Shown: positions 31,486-56,488 of the stretch, in pieces | How positions within the stretch are numbered: position 1 is the stretch's first letter | Layout of the letters: each line of letters opens with the position of its first letter | Translations under genes and position numbers: made by a program | The notes under the pieces: generated by a model | Database searches by the model: none | Seen by the model: the letters and a program-made list of their open reading frames with translations, nothing else | Told to the model about the DNA's origin: nothing | Assembly (NCBI GenBank): GCA_036971615.1 | Contig: JAYKKR010000019.1 | Location: forward strand, 186,001-250,000 | Reading direction: 5' to 3' | Source of the DNA: Amyloporia xantha | Lineage: Eukaryota > Basidiomycota > Agaricomycetes > Polyporales > Adustoporiaceae | Length of the DNA: 64,000 bases

Positions 31486-32210
31486 CAGTCACTATAGCCT
31501 ACTCTATAGGGAGAGATATGGGTGAAATTTTTATTACTTAGTAAGGAGAGCGGACGTCGGCCGACGCCATCGCTATAGCCTGCAGTGCAGGGTCGGCCGA
31601 GACGGTATAATATAGCCTGTAGATACGGCGCGGCCGAGTGCGCCATATTTCCCTGGTATATTCTCGCCTTCAAGTAGCGTCGGCCGAGAGGGTATAATAT
31701 AGCCTTTAGATACGGCGCGGCCGAGTGCGCCATATTTCCGTAGTATATTCTCGCCTTCAAGTAGCGTCGGCCGAGAGGGTATAATATAGCCTGTAGACAC
31801 GGCGCGGCCGAGTGCGCCATATTTCTGTGGTATATTCTCGCCTGCAAGTAGTGTCGGCCGAGAGGGTATAATATAGCCTTTAGACACGGCGCGGCCGAGT
31901 GCGCCATATTTCCGTGGTATATTATCGCCTTCAAGTAGTGTCGGCCGAGAGGGTATAATATAGCCTGTAGACATGGCGCGGCCGAGTGCGCCATATTTCC
32001 GTGGTATATTATCGCCTTCAAGTAGTGTCGGCCGAGAGGGTATAATATAGCCTGTAGACATGGCGCGGCCGAGTGCGCCATATTTCCGTGGTATATTATC
32101 GCCTTCCAGTAGCGTCGGCCGAGGGCTATAATATAGCCTTTAGACACGGCGCGGCCGAGTGCGCCATATTTCCGTGGTATATTATCGCCTTCAAGTAGCG
32201 TCGGCCGATG
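31486..32210. repeat. Left terminal inverted repeat and 87-bp subterminal array
   Basis: After about 115 bp of terminal repeat, seven units of 87-88 bp follow. Each contains GCGCGGCCGAGTGCGCCATA, TATATT.TCGCCTTCAAGTAG and GTCGGCCGAGAGGGTATAATATAGCC. Units differ at a few positions. They are the mirror of the array at 55790-56420 and are likely transposase binding sites. Confidence 0.93.
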
Positions 32211-32411
32211 GTGGATGCAGTGGTATTCATATCGCGCATCATGGCGCGCCGCGCTTATGGGCCTGGTATGCCCACTGGGATGGTATTTTCATGGCGCGGT
32301 ATCGGCGCCGCCAGGTCATGTGTTCGCGTATATTGGTAAAGCAACTCAATATTCTGTGACTACATTTTGTCCTTGATGCCAACGACATCGGAGTATATAC
32401 TGTATAACGAA

Positions 32412-34119
32412 TTATATCTCGCCATTCCACATCATGGCTTCAACCCCAGTGGTCCCGTCCTGCGGTGGCTTGGCTGTGAGCAAGGATTTGATGGGCTGGT
32501 GCAGCTTCAAGATTGCGTTGGCGACGTCGATGTCCTCTTCTATACGTCGTAACCTCTCGCTCAGGGATTGCGCTTGAAGGAACATCAAGTTTTCTTCGCT
32601 TCCGCGAGGAAAACCTTCTATTGTTTTCTTTAGCGAATGGCAAATTGCGAGCGCAGTGTCATACCGAATTTAATCTCGATGGCGTTCATGGCGCTATTGG
32701 GGAGTGGCCTCTGCCATCATCAAAGTATGGATTCTCCAATTCTTTGCATATTTAAGTATGGTGAAAGGGTGAATTTCGCTGTACTTACTTGAGTCAATGA
32801 TGTCCTCGTCGTGATCCAGAATGGGAGCGAGGGCGAAGGTACGAGGGAGATCCTGGCCACGGTCTCTGAGCCGCTGACGGTGTGCCTCCAAGTCCTGGAG
32901 TGGTATCAGCATGACGATGAAGGCGATGGAGGGCTTTCACTTACCAGAGGACCGCGGGGTATGTTGTGCTCGTCCAACACCTCATTTATAATGTCAAGGT
33001 ACTGTCTATGAGTATTCAAACACAAAGGCAAGAGAAAGCGAGGCAAAATACCTGGCGATTGAGTTGGATGAGGCGCTCATCCGCCATGTCAACATCGCCA
33101 TCTTGGCTATGCGCAAGGTCGTGATCAAGTGCGCCGTCCATCCCGCCGTCCACGCCGCCGTCCACGCCGCCATCCACGACGCCATCCATAGGCGCGCCTC
33201 TATCTTCAATAGTAGAGGAATGGAGTGTCAGTAGGAAATAGGTTTAAAAACATGAGTGTGGACATACCTGGGGATGGAGTGGCCGGGAGATCCAGCTGAT
33301 CGCGGAGCTGGAGGACTGGAGACAGCGATGGCGACAAGTCGAGGTGTGCACGATGAGGGACAGGCGACTCGAAGGTAGGCTGGGCGCTGTGCACTCGCTC
33401 TGGAGATGCCTCCAGGTCAAGCTGTGGACGGTGCAACGGGGTGTTTACCTGCGATGGCGAAAGGTCCAGGGCGGATCTAAAAGGTGAGGTCTGCATTCGC
33501 GATTGCGAGGTGAAATCCAACGGTTGTCTTGATAGCGAGGTATTCGGCGGTGAGGGCGAAATGTTGAGCGATGGACGGAAGAGATCTATATCTTGGGAAG
33601 ATGCCGACTGCATTGTGGGCCTACGTAGTTGAGGGGACATTAATTGGGGAAGACGAGGTCCACACGTCTTTTTGAAGTAGGCGCGGACGGCGGTGGCGGC
33701 ATATCGAGAGGAGTGCTACGTTGTGCAGATCCCCCTGAACGTTGGCAAGGTCAGGCGTTGGCGACATAGCAAAGCGAAAGTTGAGCGGCGGCGGGGATGG
33801 CGATGGCGATGCGGACAAATCGCCAAGCGTACGCGCTGGTGGCAGAGTGCGTGAAGGCGAAGGCGAAGGCGAAGACACCACATCCAGAATTGGGCGAGAA
33901 ACATCCCCTCTGATGGGCGAGGAGTCGAAGTCCAGAGTTGGGCGAGGGACATCCCCTCTGATGGGCGAGGACTCGAAGTCCAGGGTAGGGCGAGGGGCAT
34001 CACCTCTGATGGGCGAGGAGTCGAAGTCTAGTATTTGGCGAGCTGAGGGGAGTGAGCGCAGGTTGGCGTGAGGATATCTACATGATGTGCTCACCTAGCT
34101 CGTCTGCGTGTTCCGACAT
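32412..34119 (-). CDS. KDZ-element gene: Ser/Pro-rich repeat protein
   Basis: ATG at 34119 gives MSEHADEL; a 52-nt intron joins to QILDFDSSPIRGD. Then come three to four tandem copies of a 15-residue unit (RPTLDFDSSPIRGDV) and long Ser/Pro-rich stretches (SPSPSPS). Later exons (33640-33206, about 33200-33010 with repeated VDGGVDGG, 32912-32760) lead to a helical C-terminus (SLSERLRRIEEDIDVANAI) ending at 32412. Most of the protein is probably disordered. I do not recognise a family. The 15-residue units look like repeated binding or phosphorylation motifs. It is divergent from the gene starting at 34366. Exon borders after the second are approximate. Confidence 0.55.
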
Positions 34120-34365
34120 GGTTGAAAGCAAGGCGGAAGGAATGCGGAAACGTGCCAAGTTCGTCTAGAGGCATCTAATATACCCATGAGCGCAACACGT
34201 GCGGTGCCGATCGAACGGGCGCGGATCTTTCCGCCAGGCGCCCGCCATCAACCAACGCGATGCACCGCGTGGGTCTGACTTCGTCTCTTCTTCTACCACC
34301 ACCACCACCACCACCACCGCCATCACCACAGCTGTCAAATCCCATCTCGCTTTGCTTCTACCACC
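34120..34365. promoter_or_regulatory. Divergent promoter region with an ACC microsatellite
   Basis: Only 246 bp separate the start codons of two opposite genes, so both promoters must lie here. An (ACC)n run at about 34297-34320 and a pyrimidine-rich leader precede the plus-strand ATG (context CCACCATG). Confidence 0.5.
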
Positions 34366-37141
34366 ATGTCCGCCTCCAGCATCAACAGCGACATCATCAT
34401 CGCCGCAGTGCGCCTGGAAGAGGCGCTGAAGTTTCTGCCCGGGAAGCGCGACGCGAAGTACAAGGTGTTTGAGAGCAACTTCTGGGAGGAAGTGGTAAGT
34501 GATTGTAACACAATCAGGGTGAGCACTGTGGCGCTGAGTCTGTATAATGGCGCCTCTAGCAATCGATCTTCGCGAAGATCAAGGCGCTGGGAAAACACCG
34601 CGAGGGATTACAAGTGCCGCCGCTGTTGGTCAGCGCCATGGTGCAATACACGGTGGCGTCGCACAAGAAGCGCGGAGTGGACTTGACTGCCATCAAGGTT
34701 GACGACCCCGCCATTCAAAGCCATGGCCTCTCCAAATACGTGTGGCATGGCGATTACATTGCCGAAGACCTCGGGGGCAACCTTTGGTGGAAAGGTGAGT
34801 GCACTGCGAAACCATACGCCACGTCATCACTAACGGCTCAGCAGCGCTGTTGCGCAAGCGTACGAGCGAGGTTGCGCTGGGTGGGGATGGAGTTGCGGGG
34901 CCAAGTGGGGTGACGGAGGAGGCAGAGGCAGGCGGGAGTCGAGGGAAAGTGGCGAAGAAGGGGCGGATGACGACGCAGGGGCGGCCTCTAGAAGGTCAAA
35001 GGGAACGACGCCAGCGACGGACGGCGATGAGGGTGTCGTCATCGCTGCACCAGTAACGAAGAAGCCACGGCGCGGAGGGGCTGCAACGACGAAGCCGGGA
35101 ACTAAGGCGGCATCCAAGGGCGGAGTCAAGACCACCACTGCGAAAGCGGCAGGAGAGGAAACGACGGCCGGCAAGTCTGAGCCGCGGATGAAGACGAAGG
35201 CGGGGCCATCGACGTCGAAGACGAATGAGAAGGCTTCATCGCGCAAGTCTCCTGCGGGCAAGGATGATGACGCCAGGCAGACGCGGTCGAAGGCGAAGGC
35301 GGGATCGTCAACGGGGAAGGGAAAGGGAAAGGCGAAGGCGTCGCCGGCGCCCGAAGATGACGACATGGACGAGGATGCTCAAGGCGAGAGTGAGGAGATG
35401 GAGGAGACGGAGACATTTGTCTCGGTGAGTACGTTTACCAGATGCGCGGCAAGCGATGCTGACTGACATGCCTTCAGGCGATGCCTTGCGGAAATTGCGC
35501 CAAGGCCAAAGCTGAATGCAGGCTTGCTGTCGTGGACGGTCGGCGTTGCATGCGCTGCCTGAAGCGCAAGATAGGCTGCTCGATCGTGCCACACAACCTG
35601 AGCGGCAATCCGATCAGGGGCCCCTACGGTGCAGTCCTGGCAAGCAAGTATCAGGACGTCATCAAGAACAGCCTCGCCGATGGCATCAAGCCTCCTCCAC
35701 CGCGCTGGGATGAGGAGAGGAAGGAGTTTGTGGAGGATAGAGGCAAGCGGGGCAAGGCGGCGGCGAAGGGTTCGGAATCGAAGGCGAGCGATGAGATGGA
35801 TGTGGATGAAGAAGAAGGGGAAAAGGACGATGGCAAGGCGGGTAGCGCGGATGTCGATGCGAAGGGACGACGCGGAGGTGGACAGCCAGCTGCGGGTGGC
35901 GTCAGCGACTAGCGATGCGGCTGCGTCCCGCCCAATAGCGCCGCTCCCGAAGACGTCGCTCAGCTCGATGAAGGCGTGGGTTGGGAAGCCACCTCCAGCG
36001 GTGGCTAAAGGGAAGGGCAAGGAGCGCGCGGACCGTCCTCTCCAGGAGGCAGAGGCCAGCAGCTCGAGCGATCGCTCGGCGCGGCTTGGGCTCAGGCCTG
36101 GCGAGGTAAAATGTAAGTCGGCTTCACTCTTTCTGGACGGCGCGATCAACTGACCAAGTCAATGTGTGGCTGCCAGACCACCATGGCGAGTACCACCACT
36201 ACGTAGGATTCTCCAAGGACCCCACCGCCATGGATGAAGGGCGCTACGCGCAGGACCAGGAGCTGTCTCATTTCCAGCCATTTACGGCGTACCTCACTGA
36301 GCAAGGCCACCGACTCGAGAAGAACATCAACATAATGACCGCGTGGCAAGACCGCTTCGGTAGCATGGTCGACAACTTCCAGCAGTCACTGCTCGCCATC
36401 AACAGGCAGCAGGTCAACATGACCGAGCGCATTGATAACGCCGAGGGGCAGATTGGCGGCCTACTGGAAAGAGTGGAAGGCGCGGAGCAGACTCTGCAAG
36501 ATGTGCGCTCTGAGGACTCCGTCGCTCGCATCGCCGCGCTCGAGGAGATGGTCACGGTTCTGCAGGACGATCTGCGCGCAGCCAAGGAGAACATGGCGAT
36601 GGATCGCCTTGGTGCCCAAGTCGCGAACATGGAGGTGCGCGTGGACACCTTGATGGACAACGTGCGCGATGAGAGCGAGAGGACGCGGCAGGCGATGGCG
36701 GGCATTGAGGCAGGTGAGGCGAGATTACAGGGACTCATCGCGCAGTTTGAGTCAGTGCGCCGTGACGTCGCTCGCCACAACGACGCGGAGGCCGAGACGC
36801 TATTGGACAAGGCGCATCTGTCGGTGGAGCTCGTGCAGAAGGCGGAACAGGACGCGCAACGACGGCGCAAGGCGAGGGCGATCATGGACAGCGCTCACGA
36901 GGGAGCCACTCCCATTTCGTGGTCTACCTCAGAGCGTGGCTCTGTAGGAGATCAATCGGACTTCACGAATGAAGCTCTGTCGACGCCCGCCGGTGGCTCC
37001 ACACCTTCAATCAGGCGTTTCTCCTTGGAGATCGACGACGACGAGATGGCGAGCGTGGCCGCGGAGGAGCGAGAGCCTGATGCCGCAACATCACCCGTCG
37101 CTGTCGAGGACGCCGAGATGCCTCCCCTTCGCCTTAGATAA
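34366..37141 (+). CDS. KDZ-element gene: Zn2Cys6-like cluster and coiled-coil protein
   Basis: Exon 34366-34494 (MSASSINSDIIIAAVRLEEAL) and exon 34560 to about 34794 join in frame, followed by a Lys/Ala-rich basic linker. After an intron ending at about 35478 comes CGNCAKAKAECR...CMRCLKRKIGC, spaced C-x2-C-x6-C-x9-C-x2-C-x6-C, the fungal binuclear zinc pattern for DNA binding. The exon from about 36164 (VWLPDHHGEYHHYVGFSKD, then about 220 residues of coiled coil and an acidic tail) joins over a 50-nt intron. The frame does not connect cleanly near 34955 and near 35865: either unseen introns or small frameshifts. The same combination of Zn cluster and coiled coil occurs in the retrotransposon antisense gene. 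Confidence 0.55.
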
Positions 37142-40100
37142 TTCTTTTGTAACTTCGCTGTACTTTCAAACGAATGCATTGTGTACACTCTCCAGCGACC
37201 AGTAAGATTGAGAGTGCGATGACGGCAACACCCTCGGCATCACAGTGAGCCACGGGGGCTTGCACAGGGAGCGGCACGCCATCGCCATCCTTCGCAGCGC
37301 TGAGTTCAATCATCGCCATTGAATTTAAATGCGAGGTAGTGTACATGAGAAATAGTATTCTAACGGCGACCACGCGCTTTAGTGGGTCGGGGCTGAGCTC
37401 CCTACCTGTCTTGCGCGATGACCTACGAATGGCGGGGGCAGGCTCGCCCTGCTCTTCCTCGCCATCGCTATAAGTCTCCGCCAGAGCCCGCTTTGAGCGA
37501 CCCGCCTTTTTTCGCTTTTCACGAGGTTGGGGTGGTTTCTCTGCTTCCTCCTCCTCTTCCTCCTCTTCGCTCACGCGGTGACTTCGCTTTTTCAACTTTT
37601 CCTCCTTAGCTTTTGTCTTCTGACGAGTGTGGGTGGCGACCTTCATGTCGTTGAGAGCACCCGTGATCGAGGACCCGCCTGCCGTTGGCAGTGCCTGAAT
37701 ATTGATCTCCTTTGCCTGCCGAGCTGTTTGGCGTGTCTTGCGCTTTGGCACAGGAAGTGAGGGAGAAGGACCACGATTGGCCTCGCCGTCGCTCTCGTCT
37801 TCACTGTCATGATTTTCACGGTCGGAGAAATGAACCTGTAGGCCCCTCATATCTCGAACGGGTGAGAGCTGATTCATCGCAATAGGTGGAGAGGAGGAGA
37901 AATCCATACTCCCGCGGCGGACAGTTGCGTCATTGAGCGCGATGGGGGAGGATGGTGGTGCGCGCCCTGGCGCCATTGGCGAGGAAGGCGGTGCGCCGTC
38001 AATTGATGGCGGTCTCTCTTCTAGTTGTGGACGCGGTCTCATACCCAAGGCGCGCTTAGGTATGGATGGAAAGACCGATCTTCCCGTGGTCATTAGCGGC
38101 CTTGCTGGAGGCGGTTTTCCTGTGACTGGAAACGGAAGCGAATGTTTTTGCGTGCCTCGCAGAGGTTCCGGCAACGGCGAGCTGGATTGCTGAGCTACTT
38201 GGCCATTATGCGCGTCTCGCGATCGCCTTATCTTAGGGGATGTGAGGATTGGCGCGGCTTCCTCGCCAATGCCGCTGGCGGGTCCGGCGTACGACGCTCC
38301 TGTTCCGCCCGCAGGGTTTGCAAATGGCGAGGCTTCGGGCGGAGTGGGGGAGGTGGACCCTTGTTGAGATTCCCAGTGGGCATCATGGGAGGGCGAGGTG
38401 ATGGCTTCCCTGTCTGGGAACGTGGGGCGGTGGTGGACCATATTTCAACGCCGGTGGTGGGGCCTCCAAAGGTGTTGGCTGCGCCGCGGCCGCAGTGCTA
38501 CTGCGGGTGACAGAGCTACCTTCCATGGATGGCGCGTCGCCTTGCACAGATTGTGCCTGCTTCACCAGCGCGCACAACGATGATACATGCGGGTCGAGCC
38601 TCTGGGCAATCACGGCGAAGGGTATGGCGCTCTCGCTGACATGGCGTGGAATGTCCGAAGGCGGGGCGTCGGGATCCTGGAAGGCGAACTGTGCCGCCGT
38701 CAGATCGCGGCTTATCATGGCGATCACGAGGAGCACTTGTTCAATCATGCCGACGTCCCCTGTCAGCCTGCCGGACTTGTTCAAATAAGGCTTCGAGTCG
38801 AGCCACTTCAGCACTGGATCGAGCCCATGGGCGTGGCGATGAACCATATAGGACAAGTGTCGATGCGGGTTGTGCCAGGTCGCCCAGTCGGCGCCTTCCG
38901 GTGCCCGCTTTGTCGTCTTCAGCCCACTCTATCACTCGCAAGGTAAGCCTTAGTTTACGGAGAAAAATGAAGTTACTACCATCATGCGAGGCAGCGCGTC
39001 CACGATCACGCGAAATTCTGGCGATGGCGATGCCGCCTCCAGCCATTGCTGACGCCGTCTACGTGAAAGCAGCGCCCAATTGGGGCGGCGCCTTTTGCAT
39101 CTTCGCTGTCATCATCTTCGTCGGAAGTTGACCCGACGTCGATGTCCAGATTGAAAGTCTCGTGCTCGGTGTCGTCGTCCACGGCGCTATCGTCATCGGT
39201 GCTGAGACGTTGCACGCCTTTGCCCTTGCCGCTTTTCACCGCCTTCTTTTTCTTCTTTTTGGGGCCCGCCTTGCCTTTAGCGCCTTTGGGTGCTCTCGCC
39301 GCCTCATACACAGCAGGGATTAGCTCCGAATCCTCGTCCCCCTGCTCTTCAGGTATGCCTTGAAGCGGAACGCGCACTGCCCCTTGTTTGCCTCTTGCGC
39401 CGCTCTCCAATGATGCAGGACCGCGATGATGTCCTTCCTGACCATATGCGACGGATCGTCGAATTGGAAGCCGTCTGGCACCATTCCTGCTTCTATAAAT
39501 TCAGCCCCACGCACTTTGAGCGCGCGCCAAGGGCACTTCTCTTTGGCGCTTCCTGCAGCCCGTTCTATGGCGCCATCAGCGTCTTTGTGAGCGCCGTGTG
39601 GATCAAGACTTACGGTAGTGAGTAGACAGAAAGTCTCTGATCATGGATTTCATCACAGGCAGGGATGGCGCATCCTCGCCATCCATTGGCGGTATCAACG
39701 GGAGACCGCCATCGTCGACCAGCAGCTCTCGCCGTGTGCCGCGAGACGTTCCCTCTCCGTTGTCAACGCTCGCCTCGCGATTGCTATCAAATGCCTCTGT
39801 GCTGTACTTGGCCCATTTGACCATCGTATCTGCGTGCCAATCGTCCACCTTGGAAAAGGCTTTTCCATTCTCCATCTCATCGTTGAAGTCGTGTCTGTGA
39901 AAAGCGGTCAGAGCGGTGAGAGGCGATACAAATTGCCTGCTCACTCCTGAATGACGACTCTCCCATCAGGAGATTTGTAGCTACTCAACGTAAAGATCCT
40001 GACACCATGGCGTCGGTATGCCTCTCGAGCGTATTTCCTCAGAAACGGAATGAGCTCCTTGTCCGCTTTCCTGCGTCGCCATCAGCTGCCGTTAACTTAG

Positions 40101-40635
40101 CACAAAGGTCGCGCTCCCACTCACGCCGAAGATCCAGCCTTGACCTCTTTGGCGTCATTGTTGAACGCATCCGCCTTCATCTGGTAGTCCGCCTTTGCGT
40201 CCTCATCCAGTTTGCCCCAATACTCGCTCACTACCTTGGTGTATGCGCCTATCTCCTGGTGGGCCAGACCTCGTCCTCCCGTCCTTTCGTTGGCCACCCT
40301 TAGCAGCTCTGTTTTGTGCTCCTCTTGATACATATCCCTCGCTGACCGTTTTTCGTTCCAGGGATGGGCACCTGGGGTTCTACGATTCGGTAGTGGTTGC
40401 TGAAATAGGTCCCCAGGGACTATAGAAATGTGTGAATGACGAAGATGACAATGCCATGAACTGTTGGTTTGACCTTTTTCAGGCCATTTTTATCTGTCAG
40501 CTCTGCAAATTGTTCCATGAGGATATTGACAGCCTCATCGACAATGGGTGCCCTCGCAGTGCCTTTGGTGTTGCGCCATCGCTCTATTTGCTCTGGGATC
40601 TTGTCTAGATATGCCTGCAGGATAGCTATTCCCAT
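37134..40635 (-). CDS. KDZ-element gene: HMG-box-like protein with a long disordered tail
   Basis: ATG at 40635 opens MGIAILQAYLDKIPEQIERW. The next exons read HPWNEKRSARDMYQEEHK ... GAYTKVVSEYWGKLDEDAK (an HMG-box-like helical unit), then FLRKYAREAYRRHGVRIFTL, then HDFNDEMENGKAFSKVDDWH. A Lys-rich nuclear-type stretch (KKKKKKAVKSGKGKG) follows, and finally a long Ser/Pro and charged region with EEEEEEEE and KKRSHR. Several small introns are needed and the tail is uncertain; it may be two genes. DNA or chromatin binding is inferred from the HMG-like part. It is divergent from the TET/JBP gene. Confidence 0.5.
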
Positions 40636-41083
40636 GGCGAGGACAACAAGCAGACCGAGATGCTCTCAGGATGACAGACACTTGGGCACTCCCAACTGAA
40701 CATTTGCCCAGACGTGTCTGACCTCCGGTGATACTTTCGTCCTGTTCTAACCCCGCTGATCTCTCTTACACTGCAAGCGTCCATGTCGGGGCAGACCCGA
40801 CCGGCATCCCTCCGGCGGAGCGCGGCATCTCACAGGCCGAGGCCCCGGCGTAATGGCGCCGTGGTCGAGAATCGCGGTCCACATGCCAATGACGCGCCTC
40901 GATCACCGGATCACGCCTTGCCGATCGGCTGGGCCTGATCTTGCCGGCGCTTGCTCAACGATGTGATCGACCAAACAAGTGTGCAAAGCTAATGGACATG
41001 CTGTTGCAGCATGGTCAGTAGATGGCAGATTGAGCAATAATGCGAGATGGGGCGTGTATCTCCATCCATCTCGTCTGTAAGCC
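40636..41083. promoter_or_regulatory. Divergent promoter region between the HMG-like and TET/JBP genes
   Basis: The 448 bp between two opposite start codons contain a GC-rich block (40780-40860) and no supported frame. Promoters of both genes are expected here; no clear TATA box was seen. Confidence 0.35.
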
Positions 41084-41614
41084 ATGATAGCGGGCAGCGG
41101 CTTGGAGCTCAGCGACACATTGGCAGCTTGCATGCGCGATATGTTTCAGTTTTGGCTACACAAGCTTCGGAATGCAGCCGGACAACCGAGAAACCCACAG
41201 CCTCCCACACATATCCGCGCCGATATCGTCGTCGAATGCAGCCAGATCGCGCACCAGCTCGCAAAGGCATATATCAAACCTGGTGTGTACTCTTGGATGC
41301 TGTGGGCATCTACTCATGCTGCGCTGACCGGAAAGTAGTGCGCTTATCCTGGGACATTGACCGGTATTCTGATGCTATAGGCGTGGGCAACACCGGACAG
41401 AACGTGAATCTGGAGGCGCAGCTCAAGACTAAATGGCCGCCTCTCCTCCCAGACACCACCGTGGTTCTAGATGGACCCTGCGTGCTCCTCGACCAGCACT
41501 CGCGCATCCTAGCATGGGTGCTTCCGGGCGTCCTTCATGTGAATCGCCAGGTGGGCTCATTCATCTTCCGCCATGCACCGTGCTCACTACGCTGTGTCGG
41601 CAGAGGGAGATACA

Positions 41615-44112: not shown

Positions 44113-44921
44113 AGATACAATTGGCGACGGCCCACCTATCAACACAACTGATGCGTAAAGCCCCGGGGGTCAGTTGGCGAAACCATGAAGCATATTTCCG
44201 CGATCGATCAACCTGCACCACACCTCCGGGGACTGTCAATCTGTCTCCAGGATGGCACGCGCTGGGTCACACGGTACGCTGACGATCCCTTAACTCTGAT
44301 GACTGGCGAATGACGGCGCATACATCCAGGGCCCATTGGACCCAATGCTGCCTTCGGCGAGCTTACGCGATAAAGATGGCCAGAGTGGATGGCGATGGTT
44401 GACCGCCATCCGTGAATCAGCCGCCATCCTATCCGGCATGATGTCCATCATGCATCCCGACCTGTATGCTGCGGGACATACATGCATGGAGTCGCTTCTT
44501 GGCGAAGTGGAGTATCCCGCAATAGTAAGCGCTTGGTCTTCGATCTTCAATGGCGTTCAGGTCATCAGCAATCGCGAGACGCCGCTACACCGCGACAAAA
44601 ACTCGCGCAAGCAGTGGTTCGACCTTCTCACCACGGTAGGGAGCTACGGCGCATTGGAAATGCAGCTGGATGGTCCAAATATCGCTATAGACTACAAGGC
44701 GGGTAGCGTAGTTGCGCTTTGCGGAAAGCTTCTGCGCCATGGCGTTCAGAGATGCGATGGAGAGCGCATATGCTACGCTTATTTTATGAGGGACTCAGTG
44801 CATGCCGCGATGAATGTCAAGGCACCGCACTGGATGGAGTGGACTTATGGTTGAATACACAGATCTGTATTTGTGTCAAGTCTATGTTTGTGTATCTAGT
44901 AGGGTCGTGAATGGCGAACCA

Positions 44922-47900
44922 TCACACACATGTATTAAAGCGAGAAGCGGCATGCTCTGCCATGCGCGTCCACAGCGAAGGCCTGACGGCGCGCATAGCA
45001 TACATGACCTGGAGGCCCATAGAGGCGGGAGCACCATAGGTTCGCCTTGTTATGGAAGCTCACCTGCGTCCACGCCATCTCTGCCGTGACCATGACAAAC
45101 TCCTCCGCCCACCTATCCTTACGTGATTTTGCACGGAACCAGTTGGACGCGATGCACTGCCGCGCTGCAGTCAGCATTGCGGGCATTGGACGGACCACAA
45201 GCGCACTCACACTCCGTCAACCAGTTGGACTGCGTTGAATCGCCCTCGATGTCTACGGTCCATATCCAGGACAACTTGTCCTGCCGTGTTCCTCGGATGG
45301 AGTTGTCCAGCAGCGCGGTGATCGCCTTGAGGTCATCATGTTGAATGGCACGGAAGCGCGCTTTGATGGCATCAGTCGGATTCAGAGCGAGGATGGCGTG
45401 GCGGCTTTGACTGTAAATGCGCACGTTCTCTAGCACCGCCCTCTGCGTGGAGATGACCTCGTCCCAGGACCGGAGCTTTTGGCGCTGGCTCTTTGCATGA
45501 CGAACCGCCGTACGAAACAGCACTGACTTGTAACCAATGGCGAGGCGAATCTGATGAAGGGCGTCATTGGCCTGCCCCATGCGCAAACTCAACTCCTCCG
45601 AAGCGATGTCCTCTAAACCGCTGGCCACGACAACATCGTAGCCAAGCTGCGATGGAAGCGAAATGATGGCGCTCTCAGGCTGGATTCCAGAATCGATCTC
45701 ACCGGTGTAAATCTCATCAAGAGGATTGACATCTTCCTCCAGTGCATCCCATTCAGACCCGTCATAAGCCTCTGAGGCGCCATCCCCATCGGGCTCGGCC
45801 ACAAGTGGAATGTACGAAGCGGCTTTGGACTCGAATGTCACTATACGCTTCTGAAGGCGCTGACGGCGCTCCTCCAGCGCAAGGCGGTCCGCCACCAGCG
45901 GATGCCGGCCCATCTTCCGTTTCAGTTGGCTAATGACCAACCTAAGACCTGTTGTGAGCTTGGCACCCGATGTTCAATGACGCTACCTACTGCAATTCCT
46001 GAATCTTCATGCCCGTGGCTATCCATGCAGCTACGCCCTGATGGCGATGTTGCGATGTTTCCGTTTGCGTTAGTTGAAGTTGGATCTGCATCCGGGTGGG
46101 TGCTGCGCCACATCATTAATCATGGCCGTACCCTCTAGTGTGCACTCTCACCCTTTCTCATCTGCACGTCAAAGACATCCATCGCGCTGATTTTAGCGTC
46201 ACGCATGGCGAGCGCCTCGCCCTCAGCGGCTCGCCACTCTCCTAGCTGCTCCTCCGTGCTCGATCTCTCAATGAACTCCAACACATCCCCGCTCTCCGTG
46301 GCGCCGGCTTTGGCCTTTCGCCATTTCCTAACAAGGGTGTTCGCTGTTGAAGCCACAGTCAATCAACCTCTCCACCAATGTCAAGGTTGGCCCACCCATC
46401 CCGGTCAACTTCTTCCAATTGGAATCATTCATGTGATCGTCAATGACTTCCTTTCTATGTGCTGTGGTCATGCCGCGTGTGCTACCCGAAATGAGATTCA
46501 ACGGCGCCCAAAGGGTTTCAATCACTTCGCCATCAATCTGACCAGCACCGGGAATGAAGTTGGGTGAGTAGCGAGGAAAGCATGTGTCTTGATGGCCGTG
46601 GACATGAAACAGGCCTATTCCGCGCCGTATCTCCACGTTCGGCGGCATGTGCAAATACTCACTCTCCCCAAACCGCTTCATGAGATTGATGCCGTATTGA
46701 CACATGATGTCGTACATCACCAGCAGCACCTGGATACCCGCCATGGTGGCGAGCACCTCGCTCAGCGCGTAATCCATGTTCATCTGTCTGATGGCGGGTG
46801 TAAGTGAACAAAGGAAATAGCAAACCACTTACCTCTCGCCTTTCTGAAATCAACCACCGCATGCGGCATGAAAAACCCATGGCGCGCACAGGCCGCGGCG
46901 CCAATCCCCGTGGCTTCAAGGTTATGGCGATCTGCATTCGCCTGGTTGACGGCGCGATGATCGTGACAGAAGGATTTCTACATAGGCTATGAGCGTCCAA
47001 CGGTTCATCCACTAGGAGTCGATCACGGACCTCTTTATGCTCGATGGCGACAGCGAGATGCTTCTTGTAGGTGTCATCGCCCACCATGAAAGCGTCGCCA
47101 TCGCTGAGAATTACGTCGTCCTCTGGGCGACGCATCTTGAGATGCTCCGCGCTAAAGTTGCCGTCCATTACGATGCTCCTCATGTACTTCCATCTGCTAT
47201 CGCGTTACACATGCCGCCCAAAAACGTCTTACATGGCTCACTGTACGGGGTCATCACGCCATCCGGAAGCGAGATTCACGCCAGGCTTGGGACATGCCGG
47301 GCACCCCAAAGCGAGGCCACCAGCTGGTATCGCGTTGGAGGCGCCATGACCATATCCATGCCATTTGCGGTATTTGAGGTTTCGCCATTGGCGGGACACC
47401 CGCAGAAGCTCTCTGTAACGGTTCTAGCCCCTTCTCAACGGCGAAAACAGCTTCATATGCACATAGCGGCTTACCTGCACTGAATGCGGGAACGCGGAGT
47501 TTGTGACACGTCGAAGCTTGCTGTAGTAATTCATCCCCGAGGTTTTGCACTCCTTGTTGGTAAGCAAAAAATCATCCAACACCCGAAATGTGAACGCAGT
47601 GCGTGGCCGCTTGGTGCTCCCAGGATAGAGGCCCATGTCCAATAGTTGCAGGTCTCGAGTGAGCCTGTTATCGCACCCGACACCACACAACGTCCAGGCT
47701 ATGCATCCCCGTAACATCTACAATGGTCAAAGTGTCAAATGCGTAGTGACTTCGCGGCGCCGTCGAGTCCGCTTTGATTGGCTCTTCATCCTCTTCATTG
47801 TCCCCGGCGTCACTCACGTCGTCGTCTTCGCCATCGCTATCAGCATCCCCATCCAGCGGCGTGATCGGGGACTCCGCATCCACACATGGTTCGCCATCAT

Positions 47901-48487
47901 GCCCGAGATGCATCCGCACCCCAACCTCCCGAAGCCACGCCGGTTCGAAGAACCCATCCGCCCACTTCTCCACCCGATGCAGCGGCATGCGGCGATGCGT
48001 CAACTGCAGGCAGTCCTCGCAATACACGGGGCGCCCAAAGCATTCCAAGCAGCGCCAATCGCCATGCGCATCAGCGCATTTGCTGCATCGTCTCTCACCT
48101 GGTGGAGCTTCTAGCTCGATGATGTGGCTTAGATACACATCGCGAAGTGGAAGCCATTCGCGCATAAAGTCGTTCTGCGACTGCCCCGCCTTCGGCGTTG
48201 ACATTGAGCGACCCAAATAAGGCGACGGTACTCACCTTGTGCAGACTCTTCATCGGCATCACATCGTCAAACACCACATGCTCCTGCATCGGGTTCGGAA
48301 TATGCGTCATGAGACGCGGCTTTAGAGGGGATTTCGACGGCGATCTTGATGCGCTTGTCGGCACATGCGCACGCGGTAGCGGTGCTTCCTTGGGAACGTA
48401 TGTGACGGCGCCTCTTGCAGTTCGCCGTTCTTCGCGACGCACGAACACCGCATCGCCACTGACATGTTGCTTCTTCGTGCGGGCCAT
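44922..48487 (-). pseudogene. KDZ transposase with CxC2 cysteine cluster (one frameshift)
   Basis: About ten exons lie between ATG 48487 and TGA 44924-44922; the first intron is 48235-48181. The N-terminal half has the CxC2 zinc cluster (RRCSKCADAHGDWRCLECF, YCEDCLQLTH). Then come FTFRVLDDFLLTNKECKTSG, YRELLRVSRQWRNLK, RSIVMDGNFSAEHLK and, over a splice, the KDZ signature CHDHRAVNQAN..LEATGIGA..CARHGFFMPH. The catalytic core follows: YDIMCQY (Asp), GLFHVHGHQDTC, and GAGQIDGEVIETLWAPLN (Glu). The C-terminus has LRMGQANDALHQIRLAIG and KDRWAEEF. One extra G in the run at 47676-47678 breaks the frame at WCRC; removing it restores it. The exon junction near 47240 is also unclear. It converges with the TET/JBP gene. 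Confidence 0.92.
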
Positions 48488-48949
48488 GGCCGTATCACTG
48501 CGGACAGATGACAATTGGCTTATTGTGATCCATGACAGCTTCCTTTTCATACTGAATGGCAATCTCTCACGCCCCTGCCTCCTGATCCCTTATCAACACA
48601 GCTGCTTATGTACTAATGGTGCACCATTTGATGGATAGGCCTACGCACCGTTATGCACCAGGCAGCGCTTCTGCCTGGCTGCTGGTGCATCATTTCCTGG
48701 GGTATCTCCGGACCCTCCGGGGCCCCTAGTGTTCGCCGTAGGGTCCCCTCGGCATTGCGGCTTATTACCATATCGGGTAGCTATAGCTCTGGGTCATTAC
48801 TTTTATAATGCAATATATATTTCAGGTGCCACAGGCTTACCTGGGCACCGAAAAATGTATAAAAATGATAGTAAAATCAGATTTTTTTATTTTTATTCAG
48901 TAGCTACAGGTACAGGGGTACGGGAATTTATATACGGTAATACGTCCAG

Positions 48950-49940
48950 CGAACGCGCACGGGCGGAGGGAACGGGTAGCGCGCACGGGCAGGCACAGCG
49001 TACTGGTAGCGTGTGCGGGCCGGCGCGGCGCAGCGCGCATGGGCGGGACAGCGGGGACGGGCGGGGTTAGCGGGGAAGCGTGGACGGTAGGGGCAGCAGG
49101 GAAGCATGGACGGGCAGCGAAGGCACGGGCGGGGGCAGTGTGCACGGTAAGGGCTGCGTGCATGGGCGTGCGCAGCGTGCATTCGGGGCGCAGCGCATAC
49201 CGGCGGGGGCAGCGCGTAAGGCAAGGGCAAAGGCAGGGGCAGCGCGTAAGGCAGGGGCAGGGCGGCGGCAGCACGTACCGGCGGGGGCAGCGCGTAAGGT
49301 GGGTGCGAGGGGTACGGGTGGGTGCGAGCATGTACGGCGGGGGCAGCGCGTACGGCGGGCGCGAGCGTGTACAGGGCGGAGGCAGCGCGTACCGGCGCAG
49401 CGTGAGCGGCAGGGGCAGGGCAGCGTGCGCAGGCGCGGGTGGGTGTACGGGCGGGGGCAGCGGGCGCGAGTGGGTGCACGGGCGGGGGCAGCGGGTACGG
49501 CGGTTGAGGGCAGCGTGTACGGCGGGAGAAGCGTGTACGCTGGGAAGCGTGTACGCAGAGGCAGCGGGCGCAGCGGAGGCAGCGGGGATGCAGCCACGAG
49601 CTGCGGGCGTGCAGCCACGAGCGGCGGGCGTGCAGCCACGAGCAGCGGGATGGGCAGCAGACGGGCGGGCAGCGTGCAGACGGGCGGGCAGCGTACGGGC
49701 GGACGTGTAGCGTATGGACGGGCGTCGGACGGGCGTGTAGCAGACGGATGGGCGTGAGACGGACGGGCGTGTGACGGGCGTGCAGCAGACAGGCGGGCAG
49801 CGTACGGGCGTGCAGCAGACGGTCGGGCAGCGAGCGGACGGGCAGCAGACGGTCGGGCAGCAGACGGTCGGGCGTGCAGCAGACGGACGGGCAGCGGACG
49901 GACGTGCAGCACGCAGCACGGGGCAGACGTCGGGGAGGAG
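48950..49940. repeat. GC-rich tandem array, left arm of copy 2
   Basis: This corresponds to 16970-17960 of copy 1, with scattered one-base gains and losses that shift frames, so the array is not under coding constraint. Confidence 0.85.
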
Positions 49941-51109
49941 GGGAATGGGCAGGGGAGTGAGCTTGCAGATATAAATGCTGCCCGGCTGGGGCTGCAAACA
50001 GCTGGTCAGTAACTGAAAGATATGAAAGAATCTTTGAGAACTTACCATATTGCGCTGCTCGCGGGCAGCAGCGGGACGTCGTCGACGACGTGGACGACGT
50101 CGAGGAGACGACCAACGGTGACGCGTCGCTGTTAGCGCGCACTACGGGAACAGCCGGACTACCCGATTTGGGTATGTGGCTGAAGTCCTACTCATGTTAA
50201 ACAGTGAGTACAACCATTTTGAGCGGATGTATTTCGTACCTGAAGCATACATAGTACTAGAAATGTATATTATAGTCTATACACATTTTTTTGGAAAAAT
50301 TCCTCTGCTTTCTCAGAGAGATATAAATCAAATATACCTGATTTGGGCCCAGAATGACCGAAGATTGGGCTATTTTTGTGAATGGCATGAGCACTAGCCC
50401 AGCCAGCAGTGAATATTAAGTACCCTATAATAGATAGTATATAAATGTAGACTGTATTCGAGTTTGGTGGGAAGAGGGAAGCAGCTGCAGCTACAATGCT
50501 CGAAACAGCCGTGTAGTAGGCTGGCGAACATTTCGAGCCTCGAGTCGCGCCTGGCTGAGCGCGCCACCTGATTGGCTGCGCCAGGCCTCGGCCGACTCGG
50601 GGCTCGTCCTCAACTGGCAGTCTTCGTCCTGTACTCCTCATATTTGGTAAGCCTATTCTACTACTATTATATTGTGCTAATACCAAAAATCTCGATGATT
50701 GAAGCTCTATTGAGAGCATACTAACGTTCTAATTACTATAAGACGAATATAAGACGTTTAAGACGCCTTCCACATTGGGCAGGCCGGCACTTCCCGGGCT
50801 GCCCATTGTGACGCGTCACCCTGGGGGTCTGCTCGACGACGACGACAACGACGCCGTCGTCGTCGTCGTCCCGCTGCTGCCTGCGAGCAGCGTCCCAACG
50901 TAAGTTTATTTTGTTTCATTTTGCAGCTTTCGAAGTACTAACATCTTGCTGTTTAGTATCAATGGCGTCCGTACGCCGTGGCTTGCCATCGCGTTGGCAT
51001 TCTCCCCACCCCCGACGCTTGCCTCGCCTCGTCCCGCCGACGCTCGCCCTGCCCGTGCTCGTTCCACTCCACGCTCGTACCTTCCTCGTTCGTCCCGGCG
51101 CTGCCCCTG

Positions 51110-52155
51110 CCGTACACCCTCGCACCCGCCCGTACACCCTCGCGCCCACCCGTACACCCTCGCGCCCACCCGTACACCCTCGCCCGCCCGTACGCGCTGC
51201 CCCCGCCTGTACGCCTCGCGCCCGCCTGTACGCCTCGCGCCCGTCCGTACGCGCTGCCCCCGCTAGTACACCCTCGCGCCCGCCTGTCGCCTCGCGCCCG
51301 CCCGTGCGCTGCCCCCGCCTGTCGCCTCGCGCCCGCCGGTACACCCTCGCGCCCGTCCGTACGCGCTGCCCCCGCCAGTACGCGCTGTTGCCCCCGCTTT
51401 TAGTACGCTTGTGACTTCGCCCAGAGGTCATGCTCGCGCCCGGCGTACCATGGCGCTGCGCCCGCCCCGGCACCCACCGCGCCCGTCCGTACACCCTCGC
51501 GCCCGTCCGTGCGCGCTGCCCCCGCCAGTACGCGCTGCCCCCGCCTGTACGCCTCGCGCCCGCCCGTACGCCTCGCACCCGCCGGTATGCTCGCACCTGC
51601 CGGTATGCTCGCGCCCGCCGGTATGCTCGCGCCCGCCTGTACGCGCTGCCCCCGCCTGTACGCCTCGCGCCCGCCCGTACGCGCTGCCCCCGCCTGTACG
51701 CGCTGCGTCCGCCCGTACACCCTCGCGCTCGTCCGTGCGCGCTGCCCCCGCCAGTACGCGCTGCCCCCGCCTGTACGCCTCGCGCCCGTCCGTACGCGCT
51801 GCCCCCGCCAGTACACCCTCGCGCCCGCCTGTACGCCTCGCGCCCGCCCGTACGCGCTGCCCCCGCCTGTACGCGCTGCCCCCGCCTGTGCGCTGCCCCC
51901 GCCCGTACGCGCTGCCCCCGCCAGTACGCGCTGCCCCCGCCTGTACGCGCTGCCCCCGCCCGTACACCCTCGCGCCCGCCCGTACGCCTCGCACCTGCCG
52001 GTATGCTCGCACCTGCCGGTATGCTCGCACCTGCCGGTATGCTCGCGCCCGCCCGTATGCTCGCGCCCGCCCGTCGCGCTGCCCCCCCCCGTCTGTACGC
52101 GCTGCCCCCGCCTGTACGCGCTGCCCCTGCCGTACACGCTGTCCCGCCCGCGCAC
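51110..52155. repeat. GC-rich tandem array, right arm of copy 2
   Basis: This corresponds to 19130-20170 of copy 1. Around 51388-51480 a segment differs strongly from copy 1 (TTTTAGTACGCTTGTGACTT and following), while both sides match. Confidence 0.85.
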
Positions 52156-52735
52156 ACTGCGCCGCCCGTGCGCGCCACCCGTTCCTCCGCCCGCGCATGT
52201 TCGCTGGACGTATTACCGTATACAGATCCCCCCACCACTGTACCTGTAGCTACTGAATCCAAAATAAAAATCTGATTTTATTACCATTTTTGGACATTTT
52301 TCGGTGCCCTGTATCATTTTGTTTATGTTGTATATATGCTTTTTGGTGCCACACGCTTATTTGGGCCCTTGGACTACATGCCTGCCAGATATGGTAATAA
52401 GCCGCGATGCCGAGGGGGCCCTACGGCGAAAGGGAGGAGGCCCCGGAGGGTCCGGAGATAGCCCAGGACCTGATGCACCAGCAGCCAGGCAGAAGCGCTG
52501 CCTGGTGCATAAGCGTCCGTAGGCCTATCCATCAGTTGGTGCACCAGGTATACATAAGTTGGTGATCAACAACGGATCATATCCACGCGATCACCTTCAG
52601 ATACTTGGCCGATGCTTATCTCCGACGGATCTTCGCCATGACCTTCCCTCGAGGCGATCACCCGATCCACCATCGACTCCTCAAATTCGCCTTGCATTTC
52701 GCCTTGGCCTACCAACCCATTCACCCCACGGCGCA

Positions 52736-53490
52736 ATGGCTCTCGCCTTGAAGAATCGCGAACAGTCCCTCTCCAGCCTCATCGCTATCAACCGCCGACT
52801 GATCTCATACTATGCCTGGCGCTGCGAGCAGGCGCTAGCGACCATCATGTCTGTCGCCACCGGTAGAGACAAGGTGGCTGGCTTCGACATCACCTTGGCG
52901 CGGTGGGAGATTGGCCTCCGCATGGAAATGGTAAGCTTCGCCTTCCCCAACGTGTCTGCTCTGACGCTCAGCAGGAAGCCCTTCGCGACTGCCTTGGCCG
53001 CCTCGCCCTCGTCGGCGTCACCGACTGTCGAGCTCCCCGACGTCGTCCGCAAGATCAGCGACGCCACCGTCTTTGGGGCCGTCCCACGGATCCACGTCCT
53101 CGAGATACAGCCGTTCACGCCGCCGCCTCGCCGCCATCCTTGCAGCTACAGAAGCTGCACACGGAAACCGAGCCCGCGTGGTGGACTTGGCCAGACGACC
53201 CTCCCAGTCACCTTCCAGCATGGTGGAAGTATCCACTGCATGACAGAGTAAGTCGCCACCCCGCTCCCACCTTTTCAACACATTCATTCACATAAATTGC
53301 ATCGATTGCCGCATAGCGTCGCGGAGACACCTATCAAGTCAACTACCGCGATATGAGAGCGGTCAGCCATCGATTGGATGACGTCGAACGCCTGGTCACC
53401 CGCTTCGCCGAGAGCCGCCATCGCGATGTCGGCGACCTCACAAGGATGTTGGACGCCTTCAAAGAGGTGCTGTTGCCAGATGAGGAGTGA
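52736..53490 (+). CDS. KDZ-element gene: small protein of unknown function
   Basis: ATG 52736 gives MALALKNREQSLSSLIAINRRLISYYAWRCEQ. A GTAAGC donor at 52931 and an acceptor near 52974 lead to EALRDCLGRLALVG. A last exon (about 53318-53490) encodes RGDTYQVNYRDMRAVSHRLD...LLPDEE. The middle could be read in two frames: the unspliced frame gives a plausible ELPDVVRKISDATVFG, the spliced one leads to WWKYPLHD. The true model is therefore uncertain. No family is recognised. It is predicted to be helical with possible coiled coil at the end. It was divergent from the transposase before the foldback separated them. Confidence 0.45.
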
Positions 53491-53639
53491 GACCGGGTCT
53501 CTGCGCGCCATGTCGTAGGTGGATCTCGCCGTCGTCTGTATGTATTTCTTGTCGCTGCCTTTATGAGCACGAGTGCATGACGTCCCCAGCGTCTCCCATT
53601 TGTTCAATGGACCTTGTATTTAAGCGGCTGAATCACATT

Positions 53640-55620
53640 ACCATCCAATCATGTGGATGGCGATGCGATTCAGACGCTTAACTTCGGGGTAGCATTGACG
53701 AATGGCCGAGCTCGAGGACGCCAGCAAATCATGCTCTTTGGACATCGCGCCATGTCAAAGGTGGGTGTTTTCAGGTGGCGTATGTATCCGTTTCGTCTGC
53801 GCGGTGAGTGCATAAATGCATGACGTCCTTCTGCGCCAGCCAATTCTTCAATGGCCTTGGTATTCAAGCAGCTGAATCGGATGGCCATCCAACAATGGTT
53901 GGATGGCGATTCGATTCATCCAGGGTAGCATTGAGGAATCATGCAGGTCGAGAACGCCAGCACATCACGCCGGCTGCGCACCATGTGCCTCGCCTGCGCG
54001 CGCCATGCACGGCGCCATCGGATGGCGCATATTGCCGCTGAACGAGGCGGCTTCATCTATGACCTTCGGAGCCACAGGTATGCGGCTCTGAAGAGCATAG
54101 ATGAAGGCGCCCTGTCTGGCGAGCCATAGCGCCATCTCCCAACAGTGAGCATGAGCGCGCCATGCACGGCGCCATCGGATGGCGCATATAGCCGCTGAAC
54201 GAGGCCCTTCTTCTATGACCTTCGGAGCCACAGGTAAGCGGCTCTGAAGAGCATAGATGAAGGCGCCCTGTCTGGCGAGCCATAGCGCCATCTCCCAACA
54301 GTGAGCATAAGCGCGCCATGCACGGCGCCATCAGATGGCGCCCGTCGCCGCCGGACAGCGCAACTTCAGTCTGTGGCCCTCAGAGCCACAGGTATGCGGC
54401 TCTGAAGACCATAGATGAAGGCGCCCTGTCAGGCGAGCCATAGCGCCATCTCCCAACAGCGAGCATGAGCGCGCATGCACTTCGCCATCAGATGGCGCCC
54501 GTCGCCGCCGGACAAGGCCCATTTGACTTATGTCCTTCTGAGCCACAGGTATGCGGCTCGGAGGAACATAAGTCAAGTCTTCCTGTCTGGAGTCTGACTC
54601 ATTCATGCAAGGCGCTGTTGGATTAACCCATTAACTCCTTGCTCTCTACGTTCACCAGTGGAATCGAGTTGCCTCAGCGCCATGAGTACTCCGGATGCAG
54701 CTGATTTGTCCATCAGCATCAGGGGTACTCTCAAAACGTGGACGGCGATTCGATTCCTCTGGCTGACCCAGGGCAGCAAGGATGAAATGGCCCAGTCCAA
54801 CAGCGCCAGCACATCATAACACCTGCTGGCGCCCGTCGCCGCCGGACAAGGCCCATTTGACTTATGTCCTTCTGAGCCACAGGTATGCGGCTCGGAGGAA
54901 CATAAGTCAAGTCTTCCTGTCTGGAGTCTGACTCATTCATGCAAGGCGCTGTTGGATAAACCCATTAACTCCTTGCTCTCTACATTCACCAGTGGAATCG
55001 AGTTGCCTTCCGCGCCATGAGTACTCCGGATGCAGCTGAATTGTCCATCAGCATCAGGGGTACTCTCAAAACGTGGACGGTGATTCGATTCCTCTGGGTG
55101 ACCCAGGGTAGCAAGGATGAAATGGCCCCGTCCAACAGCGCCAGCACATCATAACACCTGCGTGCCATACGCCTCACAATGTGGCAGGCAAGGTACGTGG
55201 CGCATGGTTGCATAGCGCGTCTGGACATGGTGGCGCCATGATTCCATAGCGCATGCTGCCGCTGGAGATGGCCATTGGATCTGTGTCCCGCAGAGGGTCC
55301 AGACAGCTGGATCCTTTGAAGGACACATATCAGATGGCCCAGTCTCTGCGCGTGTCTTGGGTTGGGCGAGAATATGTATTAGATGCTGGTAGGTGGGTAG
55401 ATCCAGTTCAAATGACCTTAGCATACATGAAATATGTATAGCGGTAGAATATAGCGCGATGCTGCTGCTTGAGATGGCCATTGGATCTGTGTCCCACAAA
55501 GGGTCCACACAGCTGGATCCTTTGAAGGACACATGTAAGATGGCCCTGTCTCTGCGCGTGTCTTGGGTGGGGTGTATGGAGCCGTCGGAAATGGCCAATC
55601 AGTCCTTGCGCTTTGAATTG
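53640..55620. repeat. Tandem and hairpin repeats inside the right end of the KDZ element
   Basis: Units of about 158 bp occur three to four times from 53998 (GCGCCATGCACGGCGCCATC ...). A 333-bp unit occurs twice (54495-54823, 54828-55159). Each unit holds an imperfect hairpin with arms such as TCATCTATGACCTTCGGAGCC / GGCTCTGAAGAGCATAGATGA, ACTTATGTCC / GGAACATAAGT, or, at 55265-55345 and 55470-55548, GATCTGTGTCC / GGACACATATC. The arms differ between units but the ACAGGTATGCGGCTC loop is conserved. No coding frame is supported. Confidence 0.8.
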
Positions 55621-55789
55621 TAGTCACACCACTGACCTGACCACACACGAAACGTCGTGATGAATGACAGATTGCAAAGCCTAATGGATGGCGAGGCATT
55701 ATTATTATTATACATACAGCATGAGATTTATTGAAATGCATATAATTAAAGCGTAGAAAAGGAAACAATAGGGCGGAATATACTACTTC

Positions 55790-56488
55790 AAGGCGAGAAT
55801 ATACCACGATAATATGGCGCAGTCGGTCGCCGTGTCTACAGGCTATATTATAGCCCTCGGCCGACACTACTTCAAGGCGAGAATAGACCACGATAATATG
55901 GCGCAGTCGGCCGCGCCGTGTCTACAGGCTATATTATAGCCCTCGGCCGACACTACTTCAAGGCGAGAATATACCACAGAAATATGGCGCAGTCGGCCGC
56001 GCCGTATCTAAAGGCTATATTATAGCCCTCGGCCGACACTACTTCAAGGCGAGAATATACCACGATAATATAGCGCAGTCGGCCGCGCCGTGTCTACAGG
56101 CTATATTATAGCCCTCGGCCGACACTACTTCAAGGCGAGAATATACCGCAGAAATATGGCGCACTCGGCCGCGCCGTATCTAAAGGCTATATTATAGCCC
56201 TCGGCCGACACTACTTCAAGGCGAGAATAGACCACGATAATATGGCGCACTCGGCCGCGCCGTATCTAAAGGCTATATTATAGCCCTGGGCCGACACTAC
56301 TTGAAGGCGAGAATATACTACGGAAATATGGCGCACTCGGCCGCGCCGTATCTACAGGCTATATTATACCCTCTCGGCCGACCCTGCACTGCAGGCTATA
56401 GCGATGGCGTCGGCCGACATCCGCTCTCCTTACTAAGTAATAAAAATTTCACCCATATCTCTCCCTATAGAGTAGGCTATAATGACTG
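55790..56488. repeat. Right subterminal array and terminal inverted repeat
   Basis: Six to seven units of about 85-87 bp (ACTTCAAGGCGAGAATA, GATAATATGGCGCA.TCGGCCGCGCCG, GGCTATATTATAGCCCTCGGCCGACA) in inverted orientation to the left array, followed by about 115 bp matching the left terminus and ending at 56488. Within each unit, GGCTATATTATAGCC is a perfect palindrome that the left array has as GG.TATAATATAGCC. Confidence 0.93.

Follow-up and report, generated by a model that had tools for sequence, protein, structure and literature searches.

The analysed window is a stretch of 64,000 nucleotides, positions 186001-250000 of contig 11 in a host genome of 46.8 Mb and 60 contigs, and it contains a transposable element of 25,021 bp (31477-56497, plus strand) that reads 5'-CACACCATACAGTCA...TGACTGAATGGGCTC-3'. 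The initial annotation had placed the ends of this element at 31486 and 56488, but the true element is 9 bp longer on each side, since nine further bases outside each of these ends, CACACCATA and AATGGGCTC, are fixed in all 21 copies compared. These 21 copies were paired by their exact ends and, except for the window copy, were picked for near-standard size. The element is flanked by an exact 7-bp target-site duplication, GGTGCGG, at 31470-31476 and 56498-56504. Such an exact duplication was found in 18 of the 21 copies compared (window copy included), each time with a different sequence, and a matching duplication is absent from the other three.

The matching inverted ends that had been proposed are clearly present. 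The left inverted repeat (31477-31688, plus strand) and the right one (56286-56497, minus strand), as seen from a comparison of the inverted arms, agree at 106 positions of the outermost 112 bp, and the arms 31481-31688 and 56286-56493, each 208 nt long, are 96% complementary. The mirrored subterminal arrays were likewise recovered. The left array (31580-32215, plus strand) has a period of 87 bp and the right array (55770-56410, minus strand) one of 86 bp, with seven units each by motif count. Both arrays are rich in CpG, with observed/expected ratios of 1.46 (left) and 1.43 (right) compared with 1.03 for the whole element. Across eleven copies, a motif count that allowed at most one substitution gave 4-8 units in the left array and 4-15 in the right one. 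Judged from this architecture, the end arrays would suit a role in the binding of the transposase.

Six genes are predicted between the arrays, which fits the number originally given, and all of their borders are approximate. Our home-made gene finder yielded unstable models, probably because the copies differ by single-base lengths; such differences occur among copies, the window copy included, in the segment spanning the TET/JBP and KDZ genes, and they are either decay or assembly noise. Gene A (32440-34150, minus strand; open reading frames at 33206-33715 and 33621-34094) encodes Pro/Ser-rich repeats and gave no Pfam match. Gene B (34369-37141, plus strand), with seven exons in the model from another copy, C1, is coiled-coil-like, has a weak partial match to Zn_clus and a 45% identical homologue in a second element family (family II, see below). 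Gene F (52565-53295, plus strand) varies in frame between copies and has a family II homologue of 55% identity over its first half. The Pfam scan assigned none of the genes A, B and F to a family with confidence. Gene C (37136-40480, minus strand) combines an HMG-box-like N-terminus with a conserved middle part and a basic tail. The HMG-box match is weak by Pfam, by profile comparison with solved structures and by fold, and not decisive by any of the three. A structure predicted for a 989-aa open reading frame of gene C had a mean pLDDT of 46, and a homologue search returned one protein, 99% identical, among 7995 candidates scored.

The two remaining genes are convergent. The KDZ transposase gene (44876-48487, minus strand) was confirmed by a match to the Pfam KDZ profile PF18758 at 46331-46828 (110.2 bits against a cut-off of 26.6, E-value 1.6e-31). 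A CxC2 zinc cluster is fused to the transposase; its profile match lies above the cut-off of 27 bits in copy C1 (74.5 bits, 8.9e-21) and below it in the window copy (23.4 bits, 7.3e-5), so that the suggested check with the CxC2 profile succeeded in the former and failed in the latter. The TET/JBP gene consists of a 5' part (41137-41614, plus strand, predicted exons with an approximate start) and a 3' part (44112-44854, plus strand) that carries the HRD...H...R motif and the match to Pfam PF12851 (59.3 bits against a cut-off of 34.9, 3.5e-16), which bears out the assignment as a TET/JBP oxygenase.

The two parts of the TET/JBP gene are separated by the first of two nested inserts. Insert 1 (41615-44111, 2,497 bp) is flanked by the 8-bp target duplication GAGATACA, has a CpG observed/expected ratio of 0.42 and contains no open reading frame of 120 aa. 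It lies within a predicted exon, as judged from the reading frame of copy C1 and the insert border, and the TET/JBP gene of the window copy is therefore split. The gene was rightly listed among the cargo, but its interruption had been overlooked, and the window copy is probably without a working TET/JBP gene. It would thus depend on the enzyme from other copies; copies without insert 1 do exist. Insert 2 (48599-52564, 3,966 bp) is flanked by the 7-bp target duplication ATCAACA, consists of GC-rich repeats and is located between the KDZ gene and gene F, approximately 40-105 bp upstream of candidate KDZ start codons as read in copy C1. The same end sequences occur in both inserts and in relatives located elsewhere in the window, among them a 98% identical relative of insert 2 at 16619-20579.

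The best match of the TET/JBP exon among solved structures is CcTet from Coprinopsis cinerea (E-values 8.5e-19 for 7vpn and 7.8e-19 for 8jkk), and the HRD, the distal histidine and the arginine are in register with the HxD...H iron triad and the arginine of CcTet in both structures. All four loci aligned agree in these residues, and also in the Ser and the Asp at the positions that correspond to CcTet 331 and 337. The arginine is the 2OG-binding residue of AG-type TET/JBP dioxygenases. With the iron triad, this arginine, Asp at position 337 and Ser at position 331, the predicted protein has the features of an AG-type TET/JBP enzyme, and its exon has homologues in six proteins, the best of them 88% identical. 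According to excerpts of Kojima 2025 (PMC12730594), CcTet acts on 5mC and also on 6mA, and the TETs of Kyakuja elements retain the residues used for 6mA. The positions that Kojima ties to this dual activity are Ser and Asp in the present element, inside his range for Kyakuja.

The proposed search for further copies of the ends was successful. With up to three mismatches, the end pattern occurs at 179 sites genome-wide (95 forward and 84 reverse), and the reversed pattern used as a control occurs at none in either direction, so that the element in the window is one of dozens of copies, which are found on many contigs. Exact matches number 65 for the left end and 71 for the right end; these differ by a single base (C in the left end, T in the right end), and the copies can therefore be oriented. 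From the exact ends 53 elements could be paired, of which 38 are longer than 15 kb, one has 10 kb and 14 are short (3.5-6.2 kb). The short ones lack the TET/JBP gene, and two of three that were read possess an exact 7-bp target duplication. Empty sites had also been proposed as a target of the search, but none corresponding to the window copy turned up in the host genome, where each of its two flanks occurs once.

An original length of about 18.5 kb had been claimed for the element, and the copy sizes agree with it: 19 of the 38 long pairs measure 17.7-19.03 kb, and most of the others 19.5-37 kb. Ten copies close to the standard size were sequenced through from end to end in the assembly, and all ten are without both 41615-44111 and 48599-52564, with both empty sites visible, although selection by size (near 18 kb) partly accounts for their lack of large inserts. 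Over the parts that these ten share with the window copy, identity at ungapped positions is 99.2-99.9%, and the expansion of the element family therefore looks recent.

The full set of six genes, each on its expected strand, is present in at least 33 of the 38 long pairs. This count scored presence and strand between the paired ends, the order A-B-C-TET-KDZ-F being taken from the offsets where all genes were found, and it accepted TET/JBP and KDZ matches of any family, so that a nested element of a foreign family could substitute for the original genes in the longest copies. Taken singly, gene A is present in 37 long pairs, B in 37, C in 38, TET/JBP in 36, KDZ in at least 37 and F in 38. The KDZ values are lower bounds, as they rest on 144 of 174 matches; for the other genes 53 of 102 (A), 59 of 103 (B), 90 of 120 (C), 78 of 150 (F) and all 114 TET/JBP matches were used, and those of genes A, B, C and F left aside are mainly extra pieces of copies already entered, with a few weak or partial ones. 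Among the five long pairs short of six genes, one is without gene B and two are without a TET/JBP match. The other two are matters of pairing and of KDZ matching: a pair of 58 kb on contig 4 probably consists of mispaired ends, and the KDZ gene of one pair may lie outside the matches listed.

TET/JBP genes are not restricted to this element family. The abundance of TET/JBP and KDZ genes suggests that the host is a fungus, probably a basidiomycete of the mushroom type. Of 114 matches genome-wide 79 are above the cut-off, and in 69 of these 79 loci gene C lies upstream on the opposite strand, at a distance of 3.0-3.6 kb in 65 of them; no gene C was found at the other ten among the gene C matches used. 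A KDZ gene converges on TET/JBP from 1.9-2.4 kb downstream in at least 67 of the 79 loci. The loci with gene C belong to the family of the element itself (family I, 34 loci), to family II (10 loci, approximately 62% identity of gene C) and to more distant families, grouped here as family III (25 loci, 29-39%). All ten family II loci possess gene B and nine possess gene F, but none has gene A. Gene B is absent from all 25 family III loci, and genes A and F each occur at one of them, as distant neighbours. Between families, dN/dS is 0.08 for TET/JBP, pN and pS are 0.12 and 0.81 for the C-terminal part of KDZ, and the corresponding values for gene C are 0.25 and 0.82, whereas gene B with a dN/dS of 0.41 is under weaker constraint. 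These ratios indicate purifying selection on TET/JBP, KDZ and gene C between families, and less so on gene B. Because the trio of gene C, TET/JBP and KDZ keeps its spacing and appears to be selected in this way, it looks like the working core of these elements, with A, B and F as family-specific additions. A divergent HMG protein reportedly accompanies the KDZ-TET/JBP units of Iyer et al. from 2014.

Families I and II are approximately 70% identical at the DNA level over most of the stretch compared. However, identity rises to 96-100% in part of the KDZ catalytic region (82-88% in its intron) and to 95-99% in a stretch beyond gene F. Such patches of high identity in a background of 70% point to gene conversion or recombination between the two families. 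Family II has an 86-bp array of its own, which is about 65-69% alike that of family I, and the outermost bases of its right end are as in family I.

The copies also differ from one another in a way that bears on methylation. In the shared segments, transitions private to one copy affect 69 of 2302 CpG sites but only 13 of 5603 other C/G sites (0.0300 and 0.0023 per site; odds ratio 13, p = 3e-25), a comparison made within the copies and not with host DNA. The share of CpG transitions is 69 of 123 among private differences but 26 of 101 among those common to at least two copies (p = 6e-6). The simplest reading would be that the copies are CpG-methylated and mutating, and that CpG mutations were fewer in the lineages which kept transposing. 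The same private signal could arise from base-calling errors at modified CpG, which would also imply modification. The host genome has four matches to DNA cytosine methylases above the cut-off, two of them close together. Since the CpG decay is seen in TET/JBP-bearing copies, these are probably methylated despite the enzyme, and any protection by it would be partial at best.

Taken together, we regard it as probable that the locus represents a high-copy KDZ-type transposon of 18.5 kb before the insertions, with a 7-bp target duplication, whose TET/JBP enzyme likely oxidises methylcytosine and thereby averts silencing. The first part, a single KDZ transposon that carries TET/JBP and four further genes, had been claimed from the outset, and it is upheld by the borders, the target duplications, the Pfam matches and the presence of all six genes in at least 33 of 38 long pairs. 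Relief from methylation is a likely function for the TET/JBP enzyme on the basis of its domain, its conservation and the mutation pattern, and we infer the anti-silencing role from these. According to this model, the KDZ transposase, which includes the CxC2 zinc cluster, would bind the inverted ends and the 86/87-bp arrays and perform cut-and-paste transposition. Host cytosine methyltransferases would methylate the copies, and the TET/JBP enzyme would remove or convert the methyl marks, presumably aided in DNA bending or targeting by the HMG-like product of gene C. Genes A, B and F would be accessory. An extension of the model, in which gene C and the zinc cluster of KDZ read the CpG-rich arrays and bring TET/JBP, so that the ends stay unmethylated for the transposase, is put forward tentatively and is doubtful as it stands. 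It was suggested by the array period, which is kept in family II despite the diverged sequence, and by the spacing kept within the trio.

In weighing the anti-silencing model, we counted several observations against it. These are the 6mA activity of CcTet, the three of 21 copies without a duplication, the two of 38 long pairs without TET/JBP, the single-base length differences and the 14 of 53 paired copies that are short and lack the gene.

The TET/JBP gene and the other cargo genes might also be passengers that ride on the KDZ transposon without any benefit to the element. This would go well with the patchy occurrence of the additional genes outside family I (gene A near 0 of 10 family II and 1 of 25 family III TET/JBP loci, B near 0 and F near 1 of the 25), with the weaker constraint on gene B and with the fact that the short derivatives multiplied too. 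Passengers would, however, be expected to scatter and decay, and gene C, TET/JBP and KDZ have kept their orientation and a nearly equal spacing even where gene C is only 29-39% identical, with strong purifying selection on TET/JBP and KDZ. We therefore consider this explanation unlikely.

Another alternative is that the enzyme modifies the DNA of the element, with oxidised cytosine or 6mA serving as lasting marks or for recognition by the transposase, and does not relieve silencing. The activity of CcTet on both 5mC and 6mA and the matching residues in Kyakuja and in the present element are in line with it, as are the CpG-rich end arrays and the accumulation of oxidised methylcytosine at transposons of Coprinopsis and Laccaria, as described in excerpts of PMC12730594. 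On the other hand, the sequence gives no direct sign of such a role, and no glycosyltransferase or other modifier was detected among the 20 ORF pieces scanned, which makes it quite improbable. A cluster of host genes, or a segmental duplication, with repeats at its edges by chance would explain why some copies are near each other (four of the six paired copies on contig 12 lie within 175 kb). Its probability is negligible, however, and it is ruled out by the target duplications: all 21 copies compared have identical borders, but their flanks differ, as does the 7-bp duplication wherever there is one, and the copies are spread over many contigs.

This element family makes it testable whether a transposon-borne TET/JBP enzyme protects its own element. 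There are dozens of copies whose borders are fixed, at least one of them with a split TET/JBP gene, as well as short derivatives that lack the gene and a second family, and the CpG signal lends itself to comparison among all of these. The present study further lists the genes of the unit in full and gives its true termini, which are unlike those of two published Laccaria families.

The clusters of Iyer et al. (2014, PNAS) reportedly likewise combine KDZ, TET/JBP and an HMG-like gene. In comparison with these clusters, the trio found here lies together with three further genes in a delimited element, for which target duplications and copy counts are given, and the spacing of the trio has been measured across divergent families. 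The initial annotation took the linkage of TET/JBP and KDZ as known, and TET-positive KDZ units are indeed published (PMC12730594, in excerpt). Its statement that a complete unit can be delimited also holds true, but the delimiting is not new in itself, because the same excerpts describe complete TET-positive Kyakuja, Zisupton, Plavaka and other elements, for which escape from silencing is proposed.

The element shares with the TET-positive Kyakuja elements of Agaricomycotina the KDZ transposase, the AG-type TET/JBP, the 7-bp target duplications and the CA at the start, and in both the TET keeps the HxD, Ser or Gly at CcTet position 331 and Asp at 337 (PMC12730594, in part). However, the two Laccaria Kyakuja families described there lack terminal inverted repeats and have the termini 5'-CA..TG-3', whereas the present element ends in ..CTC and has inverted repeats of approximately 210 bp and 86/87-bp arrays. 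As Kyakuja is defined by transposase phylogeny and such termini may or may not be a trait of the branch as a whole, the element is assigned here to KDZ in general rather than to Kyakuja. The KDZ assignment is based on the PF18758 match above the curated cut-off, the CxC cluster in copy C1 and the inverted ends with a target duplication. Zisupton elements have 8-bp duplications (PMC12730594, in part), in contrast to the 7 bp found here. The Cryptococcus elements KDZ1-KDZ3, which have been shown to move, are also large, with inverted repeats 139-241 bp long and a CxC cluster, but two of them are only about 10-11 kb long, the cluster is CxC1 and not CxC2, and their duplications have 4-8 bp (excerpts of PMC12810828, in which TET/JBP is named just once, within the title of a reference). 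The catalytic residues of CcTet from Coprinopsis cinerea (PDB 7vpn, 7w5p, 8jkk) align with those of the element's enzyme, and Kojima places CcTet close to the AG-type transposon TETs (PMC12730594, in part). CcTet is an enzyme studied in vitro, whereas the gene described here sits in a delimited transposon and is split in the window copy.

A giant transposon of the Starship type was also considered and rejected, since no DUF3435 tyrosine recombinase captain was detected among the 20 ORF pieces scanned out of 59 listed ORFs of at least 120 aa, and the element has a KDZ transposase in its place. A search of open-licence papers gave no account of the element, its six-gene content, the CpG-rich 86/87-bp arrays or the patch exchange with family II. 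The unit is a well-sampled KDZ transposon with an AG-type TET/JBP gene, which is a published kind of element, and the unit itself is new.

Two families in this genome, the element's own family and a sister family, are otherwise about 70% identical, but a patch of the KDZ catalytic region (window about 46300-47500) is 96-100% identical between them. Besides the window, this inter-family comparison involves the stretches L050 (at 8100-8701) and L055. The intron lying within it shows 82-88% identity between the two families, and a second inter-family patch, located beyond gene F, reaches 95-99%.

When window 44104-48605 is compared with ten copies of near-standard size from the same genome, numerous short length differences are observed, which are often confined to a single copy. 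These may represent assembly noise in repeats and not real frameshifts. The reading frame of gene F (window 52565-53295) seems to differ between copies; protein identity is 78-82% in many of them, even though the DNA from 52565 onward is about 93-99% identical. The interval that separates gene F from the right array holds additional repeat blocks (window 53992-55572) with spacings of about 157 bp and 334 bp.

The element ends are also retained in three short derivatives, L052 (3.5 kb), L053 (6.3 kb) and L054 (6.2 kb), whose interiors do not match a full element copy. L053 additionally retains gene A and part of gene B, and L054 carries right-end sequence at both termini.

Both nested inserts (41615-44111 and 48599-52564) share their ends, CAGCTGC..GTTGGT, with further copies of one transposon family elsewhere in the window, at 16619-20579 and 4812-7015, and this family produces target duplications of 7 to 8 bp. 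The copy at 16619-20579 is 98% identical to the second insert. Outside the left end of the element, an ATG recognized by eye on the minus strand lies about 70 bp downstream of the insertion (window about 31402 and below) and starts a putative reading frame that possibly resembles a signal peptide.

Across the whole genome, 79 matches to TET/JBP exceed the Pfam cut-off, compared with the 47-74 TET-JBP genes that PMC8889193 quotes for Coprinopsis and Laccaria.
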